From the NCBI RefSeq assembly GCF_900115545.1, contig NZ_FOWV01000008.1, positions 62,001-126,000 on the forward strand: a DNA stretch of 64,000 bases. Direction: 5' to 3'. The notes beneath the pieces are model-generated. The model was not told the DNA's origin. It was given only the letters and a program-made list of their open reading frames with translations, and did not search any database. This DNA is from Ralstonia sp. NFACC01 (GTDB lineage: Bacteria > Pseudomonadota > Gammaproteobacteria > Burkholderiales > Burkholderiaceae). Both the position numbers and the translations under genes were made by a program. Positions 2,260 to 55,937 of the stretch are shown here, piece by piece (the stretch's first letter is position 1; every line of letters begins with the position of its first letter).

Positions 2260-3342
2260 ATGGCGCGATTGCGTTCTCTGCTGCTCGCGCCATTGCGTCT
2301 GCTCGGTGCGGGCCTGGCGATGCTGCCCGGCGTGCGCTTTGCACGGGCGCGTGTGCAACGCTTTCTGCAACGGCCGCGCACGCCGCGCGAAGGCCGCATC
2401 CGCCTGGACCGCAACCACGTCTACATCCTGCCCACCGCAGCCGGTGCCGGCTTTGCGCTGCTGCTGTTAGTGATGCTGCTCACCTCGCTCAACTACAACG
2501 TCAGCCTGGGCTTTCTGCTGACCTTCGTGCTGGCCGGCGTGGCAGCGTCCGCCATGTGGCAGACACATCGCAACCTCGTTGATCTGGAAGTACGCGGCGC
2601 GGCGGGCGATGCCGTGTTTGCCGGGCATGCGTTGAATGTTGGCGTGGCATTGGCCAATGTCACACCATGGGCGCGTGTGGGTGTGGATGTGAGCGCCGCG
2701 CAAGCCGCTGCCGTGGAAACCTCGCTCGACGCGCAGGACGCCATCGTGGCCGCGTTGTCTTTCGCCGATCAGCCGCGCGGTTGGTTCAAGTTGCCGCGCC
2801 TGACGGTGTCGACGCGTTTCCCGCTCGGCCTGTTTCGCGCGTGGAGCTACGCCGATGCGCCGCTGACATTGCTCGTCTATCCGGCACCGGAACCCTCCGC
2901 GCCGCCGCTGCCCGCCAGCTTTGCCCCCGAACCTGGCGAAGAAGACGACACGCGCGCCGCCCGCACCCATGTCGAAGAAGCCGCAGACCAACTGCGCACC
3001 TACCGCCCCGGCGACGCACTGCGCAGCATTGCCTGGAAGCACAGCGCGCGGCTCGACACGTGGATGAGCCGCACCGGCCAGCAAGTGCGCCACGCGCAAT
3101 GTGTGCTCGCGTGGGAAGCGCTGCCGCCCTCGATGAACGTGGAACAACGCCTGTCGCGCCTGTGCGCCTGGGTGCTGGCCGCCGAGCACGCCCCCGCCGG
3201 CGATGAACCCGAATACACGCTGAGCCTGCCGGGCACTGTCATTGGCCCGGCGCGGGGTGTTGCGCATCGGGACGCATGTCTGCGTGCATTAGCGTTGTGG
3301 GGTAAGCCTGCGATGCCGGAAGCGGAAGGCGAAGCCACATGA
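2260..3342 (+). CDS. DUF58 domain-containing protein
   Basis: A 360-residue protein. An N-terminal arm is followed by two adjacent membrane segments at about residues 62-100, then a soluble region with the DUF58 signature around residues 245-265 (RTYRPGDALRSIAWKHSAR), where the family resembles von Willebrand A-type folds. DUF58 proteins are partners of MoxR ATPases; their biochemical role is poorly defined. The stop codon overlaps the next start in an ATGA, so translation of the transglutaminase-like gene is probably coupled. Confidence 0.88.
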   Translation: MARLRSLLLAPLRLLGAGLAMLPGVRFARARVQRFLQRPRTPREGRIRLDRNHVYILPTAAGAGFALLLLVMLLTSLNYNVSLGFLLTFVLAGVAASAMWQTHRNLVDLEVRGAAGDAVFAGHALNVGVALANVTPWARVGVDVSAAQAAAVETSLDAQDAIVAALSFADQPRGWFKLPRLTVSTRFPLGLFRAWSYADAPLTLLVYPAPEPSAPPLPASFAPEPGEEDDTRAARTHVEEAADQLRTYRPGDALRSIAWKHSARLDTWMSRTGQQVRHAQCVLAWEALPPSMNVEQRLSRLCAWVLAAEHAPAGDEPEYTLSLPGTVIGPARGVAHRDACLRALALWGKPAMPEAEGEAT

Positions 3343-46839: not shown

Positions 46840-47526
46840 ATGGGCGGCTGCATCTCTAAAACGGGCGGGGCGCGCGGTCCCGTCACGTACGGTTCCGATG
46901 GATATGAATCGGACGTCGAAACACGAAACAACCGCGCCACGTCGTCACAGGGCTCGCGTCCTGATGCAGCGCTGAGCGGCCTGGTCCCGTTGGCAAGACG
47001 TGTGTACGAAGACAGCACGCTTTACCATGGCACCAAGCGCGAGCACGTGCCATCGATCCGCAAAAACGGCTTCCAGAAGGAACGCAAAAGCGACGGAGCG
47101 ACGGAAGGCGGCGGTGGCAACTTCATGATGCGATTCAGTAGTGGCGGCGTCACCGCTTCCAGCGAACACCACTACCTATCAAGCAGCCGTCAGATGGCGA
47201 AAGACTTCGCCATGTATGCCGACCCGGATCGGCCCGCGCTCGTGCGCACTATTGGCGTTGCAAACAACGTCCATCTGGAGAGCGACCCCTACTCCGAGGG
47301 GCCGGCGCTGCGCACCAGGGACTCGATTCCCCCGGCGTACGTGCTGGGTTCGAAGCGAAGCCCAGCAGGCGCCAACGCAAAAGTCTTTCGCGACGAAATG
47401 CAGAAGGCCGGTCACGATGTATCAACAAAGCAGGCCGGGCAACTGCTGAGGGAGGTGCAGTCCGATTCCGAGGACGATGCCTACCCATCCCACGACGAAT
47501 TCATCATGCGCCATTTGCGCGGCTGA
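46840..47526 (+). CDS. Candidate type III effector: myristoylated ADP-ribosyltransferase-like protein
   Basis: A 228-residue protein. It starts MGGCISK, a eukaryote-type N-myristoylation signal (Gly2) with a possible palmitoylated Cys4, sensible only if the protein works in a eukaryotic cell. The first 55 residues are Ser/Gly-rich and disordered-looking, as in secreted effectors. From about residue 60, LYHGTKREHVPSIRKNGF and YLSSSRQMAKDFAMYA resemble the His and Tyr motifs of PARP-like ADP-ribosyltransferases. Xanthomonas XopAI is the closest known type I recall. An hrpII-like box precedes it. No close ribosome site is obvious. Secretion and activity are inferred. Confidence 0.7.
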   Translation: MGGCISKTGGARGPVTYGSDGYESDVETRNNRATSSQGSRPDAALSGLVPLARRVYEDSTLYHGTKREHVPSIRKNGFQKERKSDGATEGGGGNFMMRFSSGGVTASSEHHYLSSSRQMAKDFAMYADPDRPALVRTIGVANNVHLESDPYSEGPALRTRDSIPPAYVLGSKRSPAGANAKVFRDEMQKAGHDVSTKQAGQLLREVQSDSEDDAYPSHDEFIMRHLRG

Positions 47527-47596
47527 AGAAGGCGTTGATTGAGTCGGTCGCCCTGGGTGCCGGATGCGTTGGGCCCTGGGTCTGGCGCAGTTGTTG

Positions 47597-48520
47597 TCAG
47601 AGCTGCGCCAACAACGTTTCAGCGATCGCTCTGCCGTGCAACGCCGAACGCCAGCGCTTCGGAATCGCGTCTTCCCCGTACACCAGCCCAGCCAACCCGC
47701 CGGCAATACATGCCGTGGTGTCCGTATCGTTGCCCAGCGCGACCGCACGCTTAACGCAGTCCTCATAGCTGTGCGTTGACAGCACGCAGTGGATTGCCGA
47801 CCAGAAGCTGTCCACCACATAGCCTGACCCTTGCGGTGCATCGAAGCGGCCGTCCAGTGCGATCTTCAGTTCGGTGTCGTCCGTGGTGCCGGCATGGCGT
47901 TCGAGCAGTTCGTCCTCCGCGGCGCGTACCGCATCGGCGGCGGACTGACCTTCCAGAATGCCCATCGCAGTCAGGCAGTAGAGCGCGCAACAGAGTTGAG
48001 AACGGATGTGGCCATGCGTGGGCAGACTCTGCTTGCGCGCAAGGTGGATCGCCTCGTCCCGAGAGGCCGCCACCATGACAACGGGCAGGCAACGCATGAG
48101 TGATCCGTTGCCGTTGTCGCGTTCGCCGCTCGGCCCCGACGTGGACGGGCTGGCGCCAGCCGCTATGGCGTAGAAAGCCTGCCGCGTTTGCAAGCCGATA
48201 TCGAAGACATTCCCGTCGGGTGTGAAGGCCCCTTGCTGGAACCAGTTCAGCAGGTTCGCCGCAAATGCGTCGAGATCCAGTGTTGGATCGCGAACCAAGG
48301 CATCGAGCAGGGCGAGTGCCTGAGCACCGTCGTCGCTCCACGTGCCGGGCAGTACGCCCGCGTGAGCGCGGTTAAAGCCCGCTGGCGGCGTCATATCGAT
48401 CTCTGCGGCGGGCGGGATCGAGGCTGCGTCGTGAAACTCGTACGGGACGCCCAGCGCATCACCGACCAGGAGGCCAAGCAGGCCGCCGCGCAGGCGGGCT
48501 TGGCGGGATGGGGTTGTCAT
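47597..48520 (-). CDS. ADP-ribosylglycohydrolase family protein
   Basis: A 307-residue DraG/ARH-type hydrolase that removes ADP-ribose from proteins or small molecules. Magnesium-site motifs are visible: RGGLLGLLVGDALGVPYEF at the N-terminus, TWSDDGAQALALLDAL near residue 60, and the C-terminal LGNDTDTTACIAGGLAGLVYG. All metal-binding acids seem present. It converges on the ADP-ribosyltransferase-like gene with 70 bases between stops. On its own strand it follows the metallophosphoesterase and small membrane protein genes at short spacing, so it is likely the third gene of that operon. Confidence 0.92.
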   Translation of the reverse strand: MTTPSRQARLRGGLLGLLVGDALGVPYEFHDAASIPPAAEIDMTPPAGFNRAHAGVLPGTWSDDGAQALALLDALVRDPTLDLDAFAANLLNWFQQGAFTPDGNVFDIGLQTRQAFYAIAAGASPSTSGPSGERDNGNGSLMRCLPVVMVAASRDEAIHLARKQSLPTHGHIRSQLCCALYCLTAMGILEGQSAADAVRAAEDELLERHAGTTDDTELKIALDGRFDAPQGSGYVVDSFWSAIHCVLSTHSYEDCVKRAVALGNDTDTTACIAGGLAGLVYGEDAIPKRWRSALHGRAIAETLLAQL

Positions 48521-49926: not shown

Positions 49927-50880
49927 ATGGGGCGGAGGAGAAAACAAGCATCCACCAGCGACGTGCTGTTGGCGCTGCCGTGGTGGATGCTGGCGATTGG
50001 CTCGGCAGCCAGTTACCTGATTTTTCACAACATCCTCCCAGCCGCGTTTGCGGCCAACCCCATCTTGAGCAGTCTGGGGATGCTGGCGCGGGGGCTGGCC
50101 TGGATGCCCGCGCTGCTGCTCGCCTTCTTTGCCGTGCTGTCGTACCTGCGGGAGCGCAGCCAACAGGCCGATGCCCGGCTCGGCCCCCCGCGCACTGAAC
50201 CGACTGGGCGCGCCCGCCCGCCGAAGGCGCCGCCCCAGCCCGCCGGCAACGCCACGGGCAGCAACACGCCCAACCCCGCACGCAACACCACCACACCCCC
50301 GCAAGCCCCCACACCGGCAGAACCCGCCACGCCCCAGAGCTGGACGCTGGAGGCCATCCAGTCGCTTGAGTGGAAGCGGTTTGAGCTGCTGTGCGTGCAG
50401 TACTACGAACAGATGGGGTTTGCGGTGAAGACGGTGCCGCACGGCGCAGACGGCGGCATTGACGCCACGCTGTACAAGGCCGGCCAGGACGCGCCCGTGG
50501 CGGTGGTCCAGTGCAAGGCGTGGTCCAAGCCCGTGAAGGTGGAACAGGTGCGGGCGCTGGGCGGCTCCATGCTGGCGCACAAGGTCAAGCGGGGCGTGTT
50601 CTGGTCTTTGTCGGGTTATGTCGGCAACCCGGTGCAGGAGTATTCCGGGCTTGCCGGTATCCAGCTATTGGACGGGCCGGCGGTGCTTGAGCGCATCCGC
50701 GCGCTGGCCGAAGACAAGCAGGCCGCGCTGCTGGCGAAGGTGTTTGATGGGGATTACCGGACGCCTTCGTGCCCGGCTTGCGGGGTGAAGCTGGTGGCGC
50801 GGAATGGGAGGAGTGGGGCGTTTTGGGGGTGTAGCAATTACCGGAGGGGGTGTCGGTATACGTTGCAGATGGGAAAGTAA
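49927..50880 (+). CDS. Membrane-anchored Mrr-like restriction endonuclease with zinc finger
   Basis: A 317-residue three-part protein. Residues 15-75 hold two membrane helices. A Pro/Ala-rich linker follows (about 80-140). Residues 145-265 are an Mrr_cat PD-(D/E)xK nuclease domain with LEWKRFELLCVQYYEQMGF, the acid in GADGGIDATL and the QxK in VVQCKAWSK. The end (about 280-317) is a topoisomerase-type zinc ribbon (CPACG, FWGCSNYRRGCRY). Mrr-type proteins cut foreign or modified DNA. It converges on the cold-shock/RT genes, with 11 bases between stops. Confidence 0.88.
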   Translation: MGRRRKQASTSDVLLALPWWMLAIGSAASYLIFHNILPAAFAANPILSSLGMLARGLAWMPALLLAFFAVLSYLRERSQQADARLGPPRTEPTGRARPPKAPPQPAGNATGSNTPNPARNTTTPPQAPTPAEPATPQSWTLEAIQSLEWKRFELLCVQYYEQMGFAVKTVPHGADGGIDATLYKAGQDAPVAVVQCKAWSKPVKVEQVRALGGSMLAHKVKRGVFWSLSGYVGNPVQEYSGLAGIQLLDGPAVLERIRALAEDKQAALLAKVFDGDYRTPSCPACGVKLVARNGRSGAFWGCSNYRRGCRYTLQMGK

Positions 50881-50891
50881 AGTGCGCGCAT

Positions 50892-51110
50892 CTAGCCGAC
50901 GCGCTCGACTTGTTGAGCGTATGGTCCCTTTGCACTATTAAGCAGCTTGAACTTTACCTTTGCTCCTTCAAAAACATCCGATTCTTCGCGTACGTCTCGA
51001 AAGTAGAAAAAAACGTCTTTCCCTTTCTCTCTGCTAATAAAGCCGAATCCCTTAAACGGATAGTAGGCCTTCACGATGCCGTACTCTGTGTTTTCAGATT
51101 GGCTCGTCAT
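50892..51110 (-). CDS. Cold-shock-domain protein overlapping the RT gene
   Basis: A 72-residue single cold-shock domain. RNP1 is KGFGFI and RNP2 is DVFFYF, the aromatic nucleic-acid-binding faces; the latter differs from the usual DVFVHF. Its ATG lies 17 bases inside the RT gene, preceded by GAGG, so translation is coupled to the RT. Housekeeping Csp genes stand alone, which makes this copy a likely partner of the reverse transcriptase, binding single-stranded RNA or msDNA. Cold-shock proteins are among reported retron accessory proteins as far as I recall. Codon use is less GC-rich than the surroundings, suggesting transfer. Confidence 0.88.
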   Translation of the reverse strand: MTSQSENTEYGIVKAYYPFKGFGFISREKGKDVFFYFRDVREESDVFEGAKVKFKLLNSAKGPYAQQVERVG

Positions 51111-52263
51111 ATAATGCCTCGTCGGATTGATTAATTGGTTTGCAGGTTGCTAATTTTTCCCTAAGGCGACGCGCTAGTCGCGGATCGCTGCGCGCGACAA
51201 TATTAATTCTCTGCATTGTTTTGAAATAATTCAAATTGAAGGCGTATTCCTCCCTGTCAGATTCAGATGATCGGCTGAGAACATTGACGATGTTTATTGT
51301 CTTTGTAAGTTCATTTGCGTCATAAAGCGGAAGAATGTCTGCAAGTGTTTTCCTGAATCTCTCGGCTTCAGCATGGCCAACGTGGTTCAGCATTGCGACT
51401 TTTCCTGAGACACTTGCATGTGCCTTGTGATAGCTCTGGCTCGTTCGGCTAGTCATCGCAGCGACGGCGCACTGATGGACCTCCGTGCGAATCTTTCGAC
51501 GATTATCAGTGCTGACCCTGGGGCTGCCTCTATTAAGCCAGAGGCCTGTAACTTCCATTAATATCTTCGGGTTGCTCCGTGACGAAATTCTCGTCTTTTT
51601 GTTTTTTAGCTTTAAGCCCTTTTCTCGAAGCATTCTCGCTACCATATCGATGAGCTTGGAGATTCTCTGCTCAGATAATGGTTTTGTCGAGGATATCGTT
51701 ATGTCATCAAGGAGTCTCGTGTATATGAGTCCAGCGTTTTCGCAGTACTGGGCTAGATGATACTCGGTGTCATGTAAAACGAGATTGGCCAAGTGAGAGC
51801 TGGTGGCTGCGCCTTGGGGGAGCTTATTCTGAAATGTCGTAAGTTTGGCGAGCAGCTCGGAAACTTCCGGGCTAAACTTGAAGAAATATTGAAATATGTT
51901 CAGAACGCGGTGAAACGATATTGATGGATAAAAATCCTTTACGTCCAACGCAATGACTACATGAGCCGAACGATGCGCACTGGCATTCCGTACGTAATCT
52001 TTCCCCTCAATGCCACCATACAGATAGGGAGGGTAGACAATATTCGAAAATATCTCCCGATTGATGCGCTTCTGGAGCGTCTTAAGGTGAAGGCTGGGAA
52101 TGACGATGGCGCGTACTTTTCCGTCCGCTTTCGGTATTTCGTATGGTGTGTAGTGTTTTTCTATATTTCTTGCCGTATGCATAAGCACAGGCTCGGCCGC
52201 GCGAAGTGCAGCAGATAAGGATGAAACTGTGCCAATCGGCTTTTTTGTATAGTATGGCCGCAT
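51094..52263 (-). CDS. Retron-type reverse transcriptase with LLDD active site
   Basis: A 389-residue reverse transcriptase. Retron marks are clear: NASAH fits the NAxxH region-X motif (about residues 92-96), ALDVKDFYPSIS holds the first catalytic Asp, LPQGAATSSHLANL is RT motif 4, GLIYTRLLDDITIS is the catalytic block, and MEVTGLW carries the retron VTG of region Y. The usual YADD reads LLDD, with both Asp kept. About 100 residues beyond the thumb exceed shorter retron RTs. Group II intron maturase domains are absent. It reads into the cold-shock gene, and a candidate msr-msd lies just upstream. The gene is AT-richer than its neighbours. Confidence 0.9.
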   Translation of the reverse strand: MRPYYTKKPIGTVSSLSAALRAAEPVLMHTARNIEKHYTPYEIPKADGKVRAIVIPSLHLKTLQKRINREIFSNIVYPPYLYGGIEGKDYVRNASAHRSAHVVIALDVKDFYPSISFHRVLNIFQYFFKFSPEVSELLAKLTTFQNKLPQGAATSSHLANLVLHDTEYHLAQYCENAGLIYTRLLDDITISSTKPLSEQRISKLIDMVARMLREKGLKLKNKKTRISSRSNPKILMEVTGLWLNRGSPRVSTDNRRKIRTEVHQCAVAAMTSRTSQSYHKAHASVSGKVAMLNHVGHAEAERFRKTLADILPLYDANELTKTINIVNVLSRSSESDREEYAFNLNYFKTMQRINIVARSDPRLARRLREKLATCKPINQSDEALYDEPI

Positions 52264-52276
52264 AAGCTAAAAAAAA

Positions 52277-52582
52277 GTAGGCACCTACTCTACTTCAGAT
52301 GATGATGAAGATAATCCCAAGGTAGAGATTCCAACAAAAACCAACACTTGGAAACCAAGGTGGCAATGCCGAACCAGCGGTTAGCGCTGTCTATAATGTT
52401 GGTCTGCTCCCGCTTTGCAACATTCGTTTTCTTGGCAGCGCGAGCGCCGCCTTTCGTAGTGCTTGTTTTACGCTTTCGCATAAATTCTCCTTTATTCAGA
52501 TTACGCCGGATCAAAGATCCGACTGCTCATCACCGAATAAAGGAACGGAAACAAAAAACTCACCGCTGGCTCAGGTGCCTAC
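52277..52582 (-). ncRNA. Candidate retron msr-msd RNA
   Basis: On the minus strand a1 GTAGGCACCT (52582-52573) is perfectly complementary to a2 AGGTGCCTAC (52286-52277), which ends 13 bases before the RT ATG. Right after a1 comes GAGC, offering the AGC branching guanosine context. Inside lie a 9-base stem CCTTTATTC/GAATAAAGG closing a CGGATC-TTT-GATCCG hairpin (msr-like), then CTTGG-TTT-CCAAG within an ACCAACA/TGTTGGT stem. At 306 bases it is longer than known retron RNAs and it overlaps a 63-codon frame. The alternative is that a2 plus the T8 run is a terminator hairpin for that frame. Confidence 0.6.
52290..52481 (-). CDS. Small basic protein gene inside the candidate retron RNA
   Basis: A 63-residue frame with a strong AAAGGAG ribosome site 6 bases before its ATG. 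The N-terminal third is Lys/Arg-rich (MRKRKTSTTKGGARAAKK), and the C-terminal half is hydrophobic/aromatic (WFGIATLVSKCWFLLESL). I recognise no family. Its ribosome site lies in the stem CCTTTATTC/GAATAAAGG, so translation could be blocked by RNA folding. It may be a real third component of the retron operon, or the frame may be an accident of a structured RNA. Confidence 0.45.
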   Translation of the reverse strand: MRKRKTSTTKGGARAAKKTNVAKREQTNIIDSANRWFGIATLVSKCWFLLESLPWDYLHHHLK

Positions 52583-53032
52583 GCATTTTGCTCATCAACC
52601 GTAGTTAGATGCAGTCATCAATTTATTGACGCGACGGCAAACACCGCGCACCCCATTGATGGGCCGTCATCCCGGTCATGTTCTGACTTTAGAAAGACAA
52701 ACCAGAACGTCTCATGCGAGACTTAGATTTTCCGTTCAAGCGAACAACGATTTTTCGAAAACAGACAACCTAGGCGATACGCCTAGTTGGCACAAATTTA
52801 AATGGTCTTCGCTAGAAATTCTACCCGCCGAAAGTTGGGGTGACAGTGTGGTTAAGCGCTGAAAATTTGCCTTGGTAGTGAGTCTTATAAGCGAAGAGGG
52901 CTAGTCATTTTGTATGGGCGAGAGTTTGCTGCCTGCGTTTCCAATGGGAGAAAACGCCATCCTTCTTACCCAACTTGATTCACTTACTTCGAACCGGCTA
53001 AACTCCCCCCGCTGCGGCAACAACCGCAGCCG
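52583..53032. other. AT-richer region with a palindrome, no gene recognised
   Basis: 450 bases upstream of the retron. CTAGGCG-ATA-CGCCTAG at 52770-52786 is a perfect 7-base palindrome extendable with one bulge. An open frame at 52626-52862 on the plus strand has no recognisable domain and no good ribosome site. The promoter for the retron transcript should lie near 52590-52660. Confidence 0.4.
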
Positions 53033-53170
53033 GGACTGCAATCCCGAACAAGTATTTCCCGTGAGTGCCGATACAGCCCTCGCGTGTCGTCGTTCGCCCT
53101 ACGGGCGGGCCTCGGCAGGGAGGGCCTCGGCCCTGCCGGTTCTTGGAAACACTTGTCGGTATTGCAGACC
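53033..53170 (+). ncRNA. Multi-hairpin structured element before two small genes
   Basis: The arm at 53033-53059 pairs with 53145-53170 over about 26 positions with few mismatches (for example ACAAGTATTTCC with GGAAACACTTGT). Inside are the perfect hairpins CGCCC-TAC-GGGCG and GGCAGGG/CCCTGCC; CCACC/GGTGG follows just outside the right arm. The whole folds as a branched long-stem structure ending about 60 bases before a 34-codon gene. It could be a regulatory RNA leader or a DNA hairpin origin or recombination site. I do not recognise the family. Confidence 0.6.
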
Positions 53171-53231
53171 TTGTCGTGTGCCCGCCCACCCTCACCGGTG
53201 GGTGGCTCCTCACTCAACCAGAGGCAAGACA

Positions 53232-53336: not shown

Positions 53337-53611
53337 GCCTTGAAGACAATCTCCTGTATGCACAAGGCGCCCTGAGCGCGCGGGATTATCTGCGGCGCAC
53401 CCAAATGAACATGAAGGTGCAGCGGCAGTTCAGCCCCCAGACATTGCGCTTGGAATACCAGCATCAGGTCAAGGACAAGGCCGTTGAATACCAGGCCGGG
53501 TTTCTCGATGCGATTGGCGCCTTCATGCTGACATCGCTGGATGGCGTAACCGTGGACTTGTACCGGTGGGAAGTCCTGCACGTGCTGGCACGTGCGAACA
53601 AGCAGAAATAA
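53333..53611 (+). CDS. Small protein of unknown function
   Basis: A 92-residue soluble protein beginning MSLEDNLLYAQGALSARDYL and ending VLHVLARANKQK. Helices are likely through most of its length; there is no signal peptide or membrane segment. I recognise no family. A perfect AGGAGGT ribosome site at 53321-53327 and the four-base overlap with the upstream 34-codon frame support real translation. It lies between the structured element and the 21-base repeats. Confidence 0.7.
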   Translation: MSLEDNLLYAQGALSARDYLRRTQMNMKVQRQFSPQTLRLEYQHQVKDKAVEYQAGFLDAIGAFMLTSLDGVTVDLYRWEVLHVLARANKQK

Positions 53612-53729
53612 AAAAACAGCAGCAAAGCGAACCCGCGACGGGCGGGGGCGCCAGGCCAGGGCACAACGCCCAGCCCTCTACGTGCCGAGCCCAACGGGCC
53701 GTGCACGACACTCAACGGCCCGACCGCCA

Positions 53730-54178
53730 AGGTCTGAGGCCCAAACGCCGAGCGCCAACACCCAAGCGCCGCTCGCAGACATTCAAATTTTCGAGCTCAA
53801 ACACTCGCGCGCCGAGGTCAGACACCCGCGTGCCGACCTAAAACAGTCGAACGCTGGGGTCAGAGGTCCAACCGCCGAGGTTTAAGGTCCGACAAATCGG
53901 AGCTTGGAGGGCCGATCGTGCGGTTCTGAACTCGGAACATGGAGGTCAGAGGTCCAAAGATGGGGCTCAGAGGCCCAACCATGGGCTTCAGAACTCCAAG
54001 CGTGAGGTTCCGAACTCCACATGCCGAGCTTGGAGCTTCGAACGTCGAATTCAGAACTCGGAGCGCGGAGTTCAAAGCGTCAAACGCCGGGTTCAGAACT
54101 CCAAACGTGGGGTTCGGAACTCCAAAGGTCGAGTTCAGAACGCCAATTGCAGAGTTCAGAACTCGGCACGCGGGACCA
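53730..54178. repeat. About 21 degenerate 21-base tandem repeats
   Basis: The stretch divides into units of 21 bases with a rough consensus GAGTTCAGAACTCCAAACGCC (written loosely). Many units carry the interrupted palindrome GAGTTC-A-GAACTC. Phase is kept through both halves, apart from about two extra bases near 53880-53905. Because 21 is a multiple of three, both halves can be read as heptapeptide repeats (FRTPxxx type), but two frames would be needed and no start with a ribosome site was found. Right-hand units are better conserved than left-hand ones. Confidence 0.85.
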
Positions 54179-54264
54179 AGGGTGGCAGCCGGTAGGCCGG
54201 GCCTGTCGGGGTTTCCGGGCCCGTCAGAATTTCCGTGTTCTTCACCGGCCGTGAAAGCGCACCT

Positions 54265-54897
54265 TTAGGTGCCACCGTGCGCGGCGATGAACAGGGCGAC
54301 GGCCGCCCGGCAATAGGATTCGATTTCGTTGTTGTCTTCCGCTCTCGCCTCATCAAAGCGTGCGATCAGCAAGAGATCCGACCCTTTGAAAAGTGCGGCA
54401 AACAAGCGGGCGGACAGGTGCGTATCGGGCACGTTCAGCATCCCTTTCGCGTGCAGCTGACGCAATACGGCCTCGATGTGGGCGATGACACGGGCAGGCG
54501 CGGCTTCGTAATGAAGCTTGCTTAACGACTGTTGATTCGTCTTGTCGGCCAGGACCATGGCTTCGACGCTGCGGACGTCCGGGCTCAACAGCGTGCGCAG
54601 CAGGGATGAGCCCACCGCCATGAGCTGATCTTCGGCCGAACCGTCGACGCCTTCAGAAAGGGCCTGCGGTGCAAATTGATCGCAGCGGGCCACCATGGCC
54701 GCGCTGAACAGCGCCTCTTTGTTCTCGAAGTGCCGATAGATGCTCAGCTTGGATATCTTCGCCCGCTGGGCAACCTTGTCCATCGTCGTCGCTTGAAAAC
54801 CCAATTCCACAAAGAGTTCGCAGGCGGCGTCGACGATCGTTTGGCGAAGCGCTTCGTTGGCGGGCCGGCCGCGCCGGCTTTGGCTGTTTTCGGTCAC
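54265..54897 (-). CDS. TetR family transcriptional regulator
   Basis: A 210-residue repressor. The helix-turn-helix lies at about residues 16-62 (IVDAACELFVELGFQATTMDKVAQRAKISKLSIYRHFENKEAL). The C-terminal part matches TetR_C domains of the AefR/YxaF-like kind (VEAMVLADKTNQQSLSKLHYEA). It is divergent from a TrxB-like oxidoreductase gene, and a palindrome overlaps the promoter of that gene, so the oxidoreductase is the probable target. The inducer is unknown. Confidence 0.9.
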   Translation of the reverse strand: MTENSQSRRGRPANEALRQTIVDAACELFVELGFQATTMDKVAQRAKISKLSIYRHFENKEALFSAAMVARCDQFAPQALSEGVDGSAEDQLMAVGSSLLRTLLSPDVRSVEAMVLADKTNQQSLSKLHYEAAPARVIAHIEAVLRQLHAKGMLNVPDTHLSARLFAALFKGSDLLLIARFDEARAEDNNEIESYCRAAVALFIAAHGGT

Positions 54898-54911
54898 GAC
54901 AATTAAGGTAC

Positions 54912-54954
54912 TTGACAGTATTGAAATTGGTTAATACGATACCACTCAGTATCG
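54912..54954 (+). promoter_or_regulatory. Promoter with overlapping TetR operator
   Basis: TTGACA at 54912-54917, 17 bases, TACGAT at 54935-54940: a good sigma-70 promoter for the oxidoreductase. CGATAC-CACTCA-GTATCG at 54937-54954 overlaps its -10, where a bound repressor would block transcription. Confidence 0.72.
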
Positions 54955-55043
54955 CAATGTGCAAGACAAGGGCAGGTTTCAACCGGTTGTGCAGATCAGG
55001 TTTCCCCGGCCCACCCCTCATCCACAACACGGAGCCCATCACC

Positions 55044-55937
55044 ATGAATGACGTCATCATCATCGGCGGCAGCTTTGCCGGCCTCGCCGCCGCACTGCAG
55101 CTTGGCCGTGCCCGCCGCAAAGTCACCGTTCTCGATACCGGCCGGCCACGCAACCGCTTTGCAGGCCACTCGCATGGCCTGCTCGGCCACGATCACAAGC
55201 CGCCGCTGGATATCCTGGCCGAGGCGCGGCAGCAGCTTGCGCGCTATCCAACGGTCAGCCTCGTCCACGCCCGGGCCGAGAGCGTGTCTGGCGCCATCGA
55301 TGATTTCTGCGTCGTCACTGACGATCACGAAACCCTGAGGGCGCGCCGCGTGATCCTGAGCTATGGCGTCGCCGACCAGATGCCTGATGTGCCGGGCTTT
55401 GCCGAAAGCTGGGGCACGTCCATCGTGCCGTGCCCGTATTGCGATGGCTTTGAAGTCGCCGGCCAGCATTGGGGCCTTGTCTGGTCCAGCCCGCAGTCGT
55501 ATCAGTCTGCCAAGCTGTTCCGCGATTGGACTGACAAGTTGACTGTCTTCGCCGATGGTCGTGACATTGCGCCCGATATTCAGGCCGATCTGGTGCGCCG
55601 CAACATCCCTCTCGTCGATGGCCGGATCGTCGAGATCGCGCACAAGAAGGGCCATATCACCACCGTTAATCTCGATACCGGCCGCAATGTCGCGGTCGAC
55701 ATCCTATTCGCCAATCCGCGCAACAAGCCGTCCGCAAGCCTGCATGAATCACTGGGCCTCGCCACGCTCGATACGCCCACTGGCGTAGTGCTCAACGTCG
55801 ACGACCGACGCCAAACCAGCATGCCCGGCATCTACGCCGCCGGCGACCTCACCACGCCCTTCTTGCCATCGGTCACCCAAGCATCCTCGCAGGGGGCGAT
55901 GGCGGGCATCTTCGCCCAGCAGTCGATGGTTGTTTGA
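55044..55937 (+). CDS. Thioredoxin reductase-like NAD(P)/FAD oxidoreductase
   Basis: A 297-residue pyridine nucleotide-disulphide oxidoreductase of the TrxB-like group. FAD binding is shown by IIIGGSFAGLAAA (residues 5-17), the redox Cys pair by CPYCDGFE (about residue 130), and the C-terminal FAD motif by GIYAAGDLTTPF. The NAD(P)-binding glycine motif is poor (GLVWSSPQS in place of GxGxxA), so cofactor choice is uncertain. Control by the divergent TetR protein fits the operator seen between them. Confidence 0.88.
   Translation: MNDVIIIGGSFAGLAAALQLGRARRKVTVLDTGRPRNRFAGHSHGLLGHDHKPPLDILAEARQQLARYPTVSLVHARAESVSGAIDDFCVVTDDHETLRARRVILSYGVADQMPDVPGFAESWGTSIVPCPYCDGFEVAGQHWGLVWSSPQSYQSAKLFRDWTDKLTVFADGRDIAPDIQADLVRRNIPLVDGRIVEIAHKKGHITTVNLDTGRNVAVDILFANPRNKPSASLHESLGLATLDTPTGVVLNVDDRRQTSMPGIYAAGDLTTPFLPSVTQASSQGAMAGIFAQQSMVV

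Follow-up and report, generated by a model that had tools for sequence, protein, structure and literature searches.

A probable small protein gene nested within the repeat-bracketed RNA of a type V retron in Ralstonia sp. NFACC01

We have analysed a retron of Ralstonia sp. NFACC01 that occupies positions 50892–52582 of a 64,000-nucleotide stretch of contig NZ_FOWV01000008.1 (positions 62,001 to 126,000 of the forward strand; the whole stretch is hereafter called the window). Besides the genes for a reverse transcriptase (RT) and a cold-shock-domain protein, the locus contains a small open frame lying inside the retron RNA, which is very probably a real protein-coding gene. A sequence-only reading of this DNA had presented the cold-shock protein as the only obvious partner of the RT, a view that has to be amended in light of the further, small gene found within the RNA. 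The locus itself is almost certainly a retron of type V, the kind represented by Se72, and constitutes a new member of that type, in which the pairing with a cold-shock gene was already known. Genome annotation appears to omit a component of a known defence system, and the small gene provides a concrete alternative effector that is unmodelled by Pfam, NCBIfam, PADLOC and PHROGs.

The small gene reads on the minus strand (52290–52481) as 63 codons, from an ATG at 52481–52479 to a TAG stop at 52292–52290, between the outer repeats of the RNA, and a Shine-Dalgarno-like GGAG (52490–52487) starts nine bases ahead of its ATG. A frame of 57–73 codons was found at the matching place in all 18 type V loci considered, the shortest frame of at least 50 codons being taken as the small gene where several ATGs were open. 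Eleven of these loci were gathered by RT similarity, namely the window and those of G174, Candidatus (Ca.) Burkholderia humilis/G296, G305, Halomonas, Hafnia, Klebsiella, Salmonella (Se72), Edwardsiella, G1316 and G1581 (G and L numbers are our handles for genomes and loci). The 57–73-codon frame with a Shine-Dalgarno-like motif was present in 11/11 of them and the cold-shock gene in 10/11, the remaining locus (L054) being cut by the record end. As the window frame had first been spotted by eye, a blind test was carried out on viral contigs with a pattern drawn from the leader only, GGCGATCN{3,14}GATCATGACCGG. This pattern matched 23 viral stretches, seven of which carried a type V RT approximately 420–440 nt further on, so that it retrieves type V retrons from raw DNA in 7/23 matches; no type V RT was seen in the remaining 16, at least two of which (L072 and L085) are too short to tell. 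The small gene (59–69 codons) and the outer repeat were present in 7/7 of the blind-test loci and the cold-shock gene in 6/6 of those with room for it (L075 ends too early), with a clear Shine-Dalgarno-like motif in five of the seven and GAGA only in L084 and L089. The small genes of these last two loci differ by one base and both were counted, which leaves 17 effectively distinct copies. Left out of the 18 were L003, which equals the window (analysed as L002), and L001, L056, L021, L024, L026, L028 and L055, all near-identical to counted loci and with an identical peptide.

The small gene had no entry in 16 E. coli annotation rows spanning the whole locus, where only the RT and the cold-shock protein are listed, and it was likewise absent from the annotation of eight fetched plasmid records, whose gene tables are incomplete; in one Edwardsiella copy it is entered as a hypothetical protein. 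Among 18 related RTs near which no cold-shock gene was seen, the corresponding place held one small hydrophobic open reading frame (ORF), in L017, two ORFs judged by eye to be helix-turn-helix-like, and nothing in the other 15. The ORF of L017 (G787) encodes 52 aa with a strongly hydrophobic end and stands before an RT that is not of type V, in a locus that ends just past the RT; going by this case, retrons of other kinds may likewise conceal small membrane proteins. Scans of viral contigs with single proteins found no relative, and the alignment scan found 25, of which one only (L047) had a cold-shock-like ORF nearby, a weak match (2467–2880, plus strand; 27.7 bits, E 4.5e-7) located directly before a distant RT, which is possibly a separate pairing of RT and cold-shock protein.

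The coding nature of the frame was assessed by placing the observed numbers of transitions and transversions at random, as the null, and scoring the in-frame protein similarity. In the first set eight of nine pairs gave P<0.05 and the ninth 0.055, and in a further set eight of ten pairs gave P<=0.0017, the two failures being L084/L089, with one substitution, and L074/L084 (P 0.18). Among control frames, 2/38 fell at P<0.05 (0.022 and 0.037), both from the first set. In addition, a profile built from six viral copies ranked the small genes of L057 (E 0.00087), L059, L022 and L004 (E 0.47–2.3 for the last three) above all unrelated ORFs (n=1789). The encoded proteins share a layout: they begin, in most clades, with a strand-like segment, continue with a polar middle, which contains QVDS or QVDG in most viral and L057/L059 copies, and finish with a hydrophobic end. 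The C-terminal part was more hydrophobic than the N-terminal part in 11/11 of the first loci (each P 0.005–0.2), and the best 19-residue Kyte-Doolittle mean was at least 1.6, the threshold of that scale over 19 residues, in 9/18 small proteins. AlphaFold predicted for the window protein a long helix (residues 10–52) followed by a short one (55–62), with modest confidence (predicted local distance difference test, pLDDT, 70.7; predicted template modelling score, pTM, 0.33). Comparison with Pfam, NCBIfam, PADLOC and PHROGs returned no convincing family, with scattered hits of E 0.03 or weaker.

The gene is embedded in a strongly structured RNA. The sequence-only reading had proposed a candidate retron RNA upstream of the RT gene, and this proposal is borne out: the predicted fold of the segment 52274–52590 (minus strand) has an energy of −118.9 kcal/mol, whereas shuffles average −88.6 (z −6.6, 0/100 shuffles). 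A perfect 10-bp inverted repeat, identified by inverted-repeat and partner searches, closes it, with the a1-like 5′ arm GTAGGCACCT (52582–52573) facing the a2-like 3′ arm AGGTGCCTAC (52286–52277), and ends exactly at the right boundary (52582) drawn by that reading. The 3′ arm ends 14 nt before the RT start in the window, and in 18/18 loci the best-scoring 3′ arm ends 4–32 nt ahead of it. In each of the 18 loci the outer arms are able to pair, with letters that differ by lineage (the window has GTAGGCACCT/AGGTGCCTAC, Se72 GAGTTAAAAGTC/GACTTTTAACTC and several viral loci GGTTAGGAGTT/AACTCCTAACC), so that the ends of the RNA keep their pairing across homologues with different sequences. Shuffling, which covered the first 11 loci, placed nine of them at <=5/100; L020 and L057, whose arms at the shared place were second-best and chosen by eye, gave 14 and 68 of 100.

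Within these arms, predicted folds place the Shine-Dalgarno-like site of the window in a 13-bp hairpin, whose 3′ strand GAATAAAGGAG (52487–52497, minus strand) covers the ribosome site of the small gene and whose 5′ strand is TTCCTTTATTC (52535–52545), and the ATG in a second predicted, GAAA-capped hairpin, TTTATGC-GAAA-GCGTAAA (52467–52484). Opening the start site of the window would cost 16.8 kcal/mol versus 8.7 in shuffles, none of 100 being as high, and closure in the window and its two nearest relatives was reached by 0, 0 and 1 of 100 shuffles. Closure was assessed via single folds and shuffles rather than via a consensus fold; the consensus over 11 aligned 5′ regions did not recover the start-site hairpin (four pairs, none changed on both sides), probably because lineage-specific insertions were misaligned.

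The conserved RNA extends upstream beyond the inverted repeat to about 52,810, a limit that is approximate. This leader (52583–52812, minus strand), delineated by alignment, folds and pattern search, includes hairpins at 52786–52770 and 52722–52709 as well as ACATGACCGG, and by analogy with Se72 it is likely to be the template (msd) region. The leader and the Shine-Dalgarno hairpin share a direct repeat: copy R1, TGATGAGCA, lies at the leader end, immediately before the 5′ outer arm (52589–52597; P 0.006 by shuffles), and copy R2, with the same letters, was found by repeat search on the loop side of the hairpin (52524–52532). The repeat is exact over 8–9 nt in 8/11 of the first loci (P 0–0.026) and over 7–8 nt in 7/7 of the later ones (P 0.02–0.14), which gives 15/18 loci with a repeat of 7–9 nt at matching places. 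Its letters vary by lineage (GTCTGGC or TGATGAGCA, for instance, and GTCTGGTG in both copies of L086); L004 and L005 retain parts only and L013 has none. The RT may recognise the repeat as a site; alternatively, DNA copied from R1 may pair with R2. No consistent partner complementary to R1/R2 was found elsewhere in eight transcripts, and a search with an R1..R2 pattern returned a single viral contig, L095, which carries no type V RT. Before the leader stands a promoter-like CTGTCA-17-TAGAAT (52818–52846, minus strand; 9/12 matches), a weak candidate, as the search gave two sites in the region against 3.0 expected from shuffles. A side observation concerns GCTCTTTAA, located near the beginning of the leader, shortly past a hairpin-like stretch, in 6/11 leaders (L022, L020, L023, L054, L013 and L025), a feature that resembles the antitermination site (boxB-boxA) found in leaders of ribosomal RNA and was not seen in the window lineage.

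The assignment to type V follows from RT_V being the best model for the RT and from the partner passing the cut-off of the Se72-effector family. The RT gene (51094–52263, minus strand) encodes 389 aa matching Pfam RVT_1 (88.2 bits), in which the motifs announced by the sequence-only reading (NASAHR, PQG, LLDD at the catalytic stretch and VTG) are all readable; among PADLOC models RT_V scored 352.2 bits and RT_IV, the second, 256.6, that is, 96 bits lower. The cold-shock gene (50892–51110, minus strand; 72 aa, Pfam CSD 47.4 bits) does overlap the RT gene by 17 bases (51094–51110), and its product scored 87.7 bits against the NCBIfam model NF038236 (retron_eff_Se72, cut-off 82) and matched PADLOC CSD_V at E 5.2e-27. 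The same RT_V/CSD_V and NF038236 matches rule out a rare or new cold-shock pairing: the partner, previously regarded as rare, is instead the defining partner of type V. In a tree of 33 RTs, which excluded the remaining viral loci of the alignment scan and the loci found later, 10/11 type V RTs including that of the window grouped together with a support of 84/86, below the starred level of the tool, and L013 was left unplaced; the tree does not settle whether type IV and type V RTs are sisters. Against a type V RT profile the 11 loci scored at least 392 bits and the loci lacking a cold-shock gene at most 277, a gap that arises partly by construction, the profile having been built from eight of the members. 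The model for the two-helix membrane effector of type IV, 2TM_IV, found no match among the window neighbours scanned (cold-shock and Mrr-like). Across the genomes examined the RT, the cold-shock gene and the upstream RNA co-occur; a non-retron RT, an RNA without covariation or an unlinked cold-shock gene, which had been named beforehand as findings contrary to a retron, did not turn up. The genes are also AT-richer than their surroundings, as had been pointed out, with 45.7% GC in 51001–52000 and 46.7% in 52001–53000, against 52.5% in the next-lowest 1-kb block and 57–69% in the others.

On the function of the small protein our judgement is evenly balanced: it may well be the small protein, rather than the cold-shock protein, that acts as effector. 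The retron has four conserved parts: a structured leader RNA, the small gene between the arms of the outer inverted repeat, the RT and the cold-shock protein. In the mechanism we propose, the RT would copy the leader into DNA, as others report for Se72, and the same transcript would serve as messenger for the small protein, with its ribosome site predicted to be folded shut at rest, most strongly in the window lineage. RecBCD would normally clear the RT-made DNA, which could persist when a phage disables RecBCD, the trigger reported for Se72. The RNA would then be remodelled, probably with the aid of the cold-shock protein, to which a role as RNA chaperone is ascribed because its next-best NCBIfam model, far below the cut-off (48.6 bits versus 120), is CspE, an antiterminator and regulator of RNA stability. 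The small protein would finally be translated, act at the membrane and halt growth. In favour of this proposal we count that type IV, the second-best match of the RT, has a membrane effector and that one type IV retron sits in the same chromosomal slot of a sister species. A more detailed version, in which loss of RecBCD lets DNA copied from R1 accumulate and pair with R2 while the cold-shock protein opens the lock on the shut ribosome site of the nested membrane toxin, is rather unlikely to hold in full; the cold-shock protein would be the key and the small toxin the bomb. The RT-made DNA could control the small gene because R1 and R2 carry the same letters. If the small protein is indeed the effector, type V would be a retron type with a toxin encoded inside the retron RNA and a link to type I toxin-antitoxin loci, and this would account for a bare nucleic-acid-binding domain sufficing as the visible partner.

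Several points weigh against the proposal that the small protein is the effector. The seven blind-test loci are kin to each other and to L057/L059, so that they count for fewer than seven independent cases; the coding test is biased towards the frame under test, since its alignments are made at the protein level, and its pairs are not independent. Simple ratios of nonsynonymous to synonymous substitution (dN/dS) were about 1 in three of the 13 pairs with an estimate and below 1 in the other ten, values that led us to regard the small protein as fast-evolving, and the other small-protein profiles (five, plus two of three) do not link the clades. Among the 18 small proteins that of the window ranks lowest in hydrophobicity (best 19-residue Kyte-Doolittle mean 1.07). 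Closure of the start site at <=2% of shuffles was found in 7/18 loci only (6/11 first and 1/7 later, with plain shuffles), L054 being the poorest with 92/100. Furthermore, a cut or frameshifted RT stands beside an intact small gene in L026, an E. coli plasmid locus next to blaCMY-2 in which no cold-shock gene was seen, in L055, which has a cold-shock gene, and in L001/L005 of Ca. Burkholderia humilis. The RT is therefore not needed in these loci to keep the small gene harmless; such copies are consistent with a toxin whose default state is off, and they speak against the RT as a required antitoxin.

NCBI, moreover, names the cold-shock protein as the effector, as does PADLOC, and we have to consider that this protein, freed or activated on infection, arrests growth as it binds large amounts of RNA or single-stranded DNA, with the small gene in a regulatory or accessory role. 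The cold-shock gene accompanies 10/11 first and 6/7 later loci, the two misses (L054 and L075) being cut by a record or contig end, and its KGFGFI and DVFFYF stretches, which we take to be those that usually bind nucleic acid, are intact. A database label is no test, however, and the CspE match points, if faintly, to a chaperone of RNA and not to a toxin; we consider this explanation doubtful. The open frame could also be a leader peptide or a part of the RNA, its translation opening the RT start or the frame forming an alternative msr, with the peptide itself of minor importance. The closeness of the 3′ arm to the RT start in every locus and, for the window and some other loci, the enclosure of the start codon by a predicted hairpin are consistent with such a role, and a 2019 review describes the repeat-flanked ORF of Se72 as a possible alternative msr. 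Nevertheless, the protein reading is conserved beyond random substitution whereas 36/38 control frames are not, and we hold this possibility to be unlikely. Finally, the small protein might be a sensor or antitoxin subunit that forms a complex with the RT and the cold-shock protein and keeps them inactive; retrons have been described in the literature as an RT and RT-made DNA acting as sensor beside an effector. The strongly hydrophobic end present in half of the copies fits a toxin better, as does the shut ribosome site of the window lineage, which would ill suit a constantly made subunit; a sensor or antitoxin role appears highly improbable.

The closest known counterpart of the window locus is Se72 (Retron-Sen1), the type V retron found on small plasmids of Salmonella, E. 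coli and Klebsiella. Its RT is 35–37% identical to that of the window, its cold-shock protein belongs to the same NCBI family, its leader carries ATGACCGG, and an outer inverted repeat surrounds a small ORF directly before the RT; the letters of the repeat and of the small protein differ, and the window copy, unlike Se72, is chromosomal, lying in a defence hotspot beside an Mrr gene. The ORF in Se72 is already on record and hence not new. The literature searched, which did not extend to the founding papers on Se72 and type V, yielded no account of this ORF as a conserved protein, and as far as that literature goes a conserved protein gene nested as a functional part in a repeat-bracketed retron RNA is new. 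Type V was reportedly defined by Mestre 2020, and Pilousova and Rychlik 2011 and Rychlik 2001 are said to deal with the Se72 RNA. Type IV, known from Ec48, from phage pro147 (L027) and from the sister species G158 (L007), supplies the second-best model for the window RT; it differs from the window in that its effector is a membrane protein placed after the RT (2TM_IV, 243 aa in G158), and neither L007 nor L027 has a small gene before the RT or a cold-shock gene. In some type I toxins the start site is shut. Type I toxins such as TimP, TisB and DinQ are, like the protein proposed here, small membrane-acting proteins under RNA control, but they are repressed by small antisense RNAs, in contrast to the link with the RT, RT-made DNA and a cold-shock protein suggested for the window. 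Activation via RecBCD inhibition is shared by Se72 and Ec48 according to PMC12409349 and PMC10732053, and one of the two, a 2023 paper, has growth arrest follow by a mechanism that it calls unknown.

The retron lies tail to tail, at its cold-shock gene, with an Mrr-like gene (49927–50880, plus strand; Mrr_cat 88.7 bits). The sequence-only reading was right in that an Mrr-like nuclease gene adjoins the retron, but the gene does not belong to it; Mrr as a retron partner was ruled out by its presence in 13/16 genomes of the genus, the window's own counted. Similarity to the window ends at the end of this gene, at 50869–50874 in 10/11 relatives and in L007 and at 50842 in the other relative, and the sequence that follows differs among relatives. 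Scanning the largest ORF after the Mrr gene in nine relatives, together with the L007 effector (10/12 loci), revealed AriAB (549 bits), Old (230), bSEFIR (235), two further AAA proteins, a NACHT protein, a PIN protein, one weak match, one ORF without any match, and the 2TM_IV effector of L007 (229 bits). In G158 the type IV retron (L007) lies between the same Mrr gene and a C4-RNA-like stretch, and the C4-RNA element of the window begins at 52,993. In this genus the stretch that follows the Mrr gene (50881 to about 52990) is thus occupied by varying defence genes and forms a defence hotspot, which supports a defence role of the window retron.

Some further observations concern the flanks. A C4 antisense RNA was detected at 52998–53193 (plus strand; 46.7 bits, cut-off 45). 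It is immediately preceded by an a1/b1-like target that scored 39.2 bits, below its cut-off of 46.7, an arrangement which we take to be that of P1/P4-type phage immunity regions. In L067 (G077) a 94% match to window 54277–55433 lies on the opposite side of the Mrr gene, indicating that the flanks of the hotspot have been rearranged. Overlapping ORFs at 53592–54268 (plus strand) consist of short repeated motifs such as RGPKMGLRGPTMGFRTP and are apparently a degenerate repeat array. On the other side, within 46840–48520, a 228-aa ORF on the plus strand contains YHGTKREHVPSIRKNGF, has no family match and faces an ADP-ribosylglycohydrolase gene (233 bits, minus strand); guessing from the letters, the two are possibly an ADP-ribosyltransferase paired with its hydrolase.

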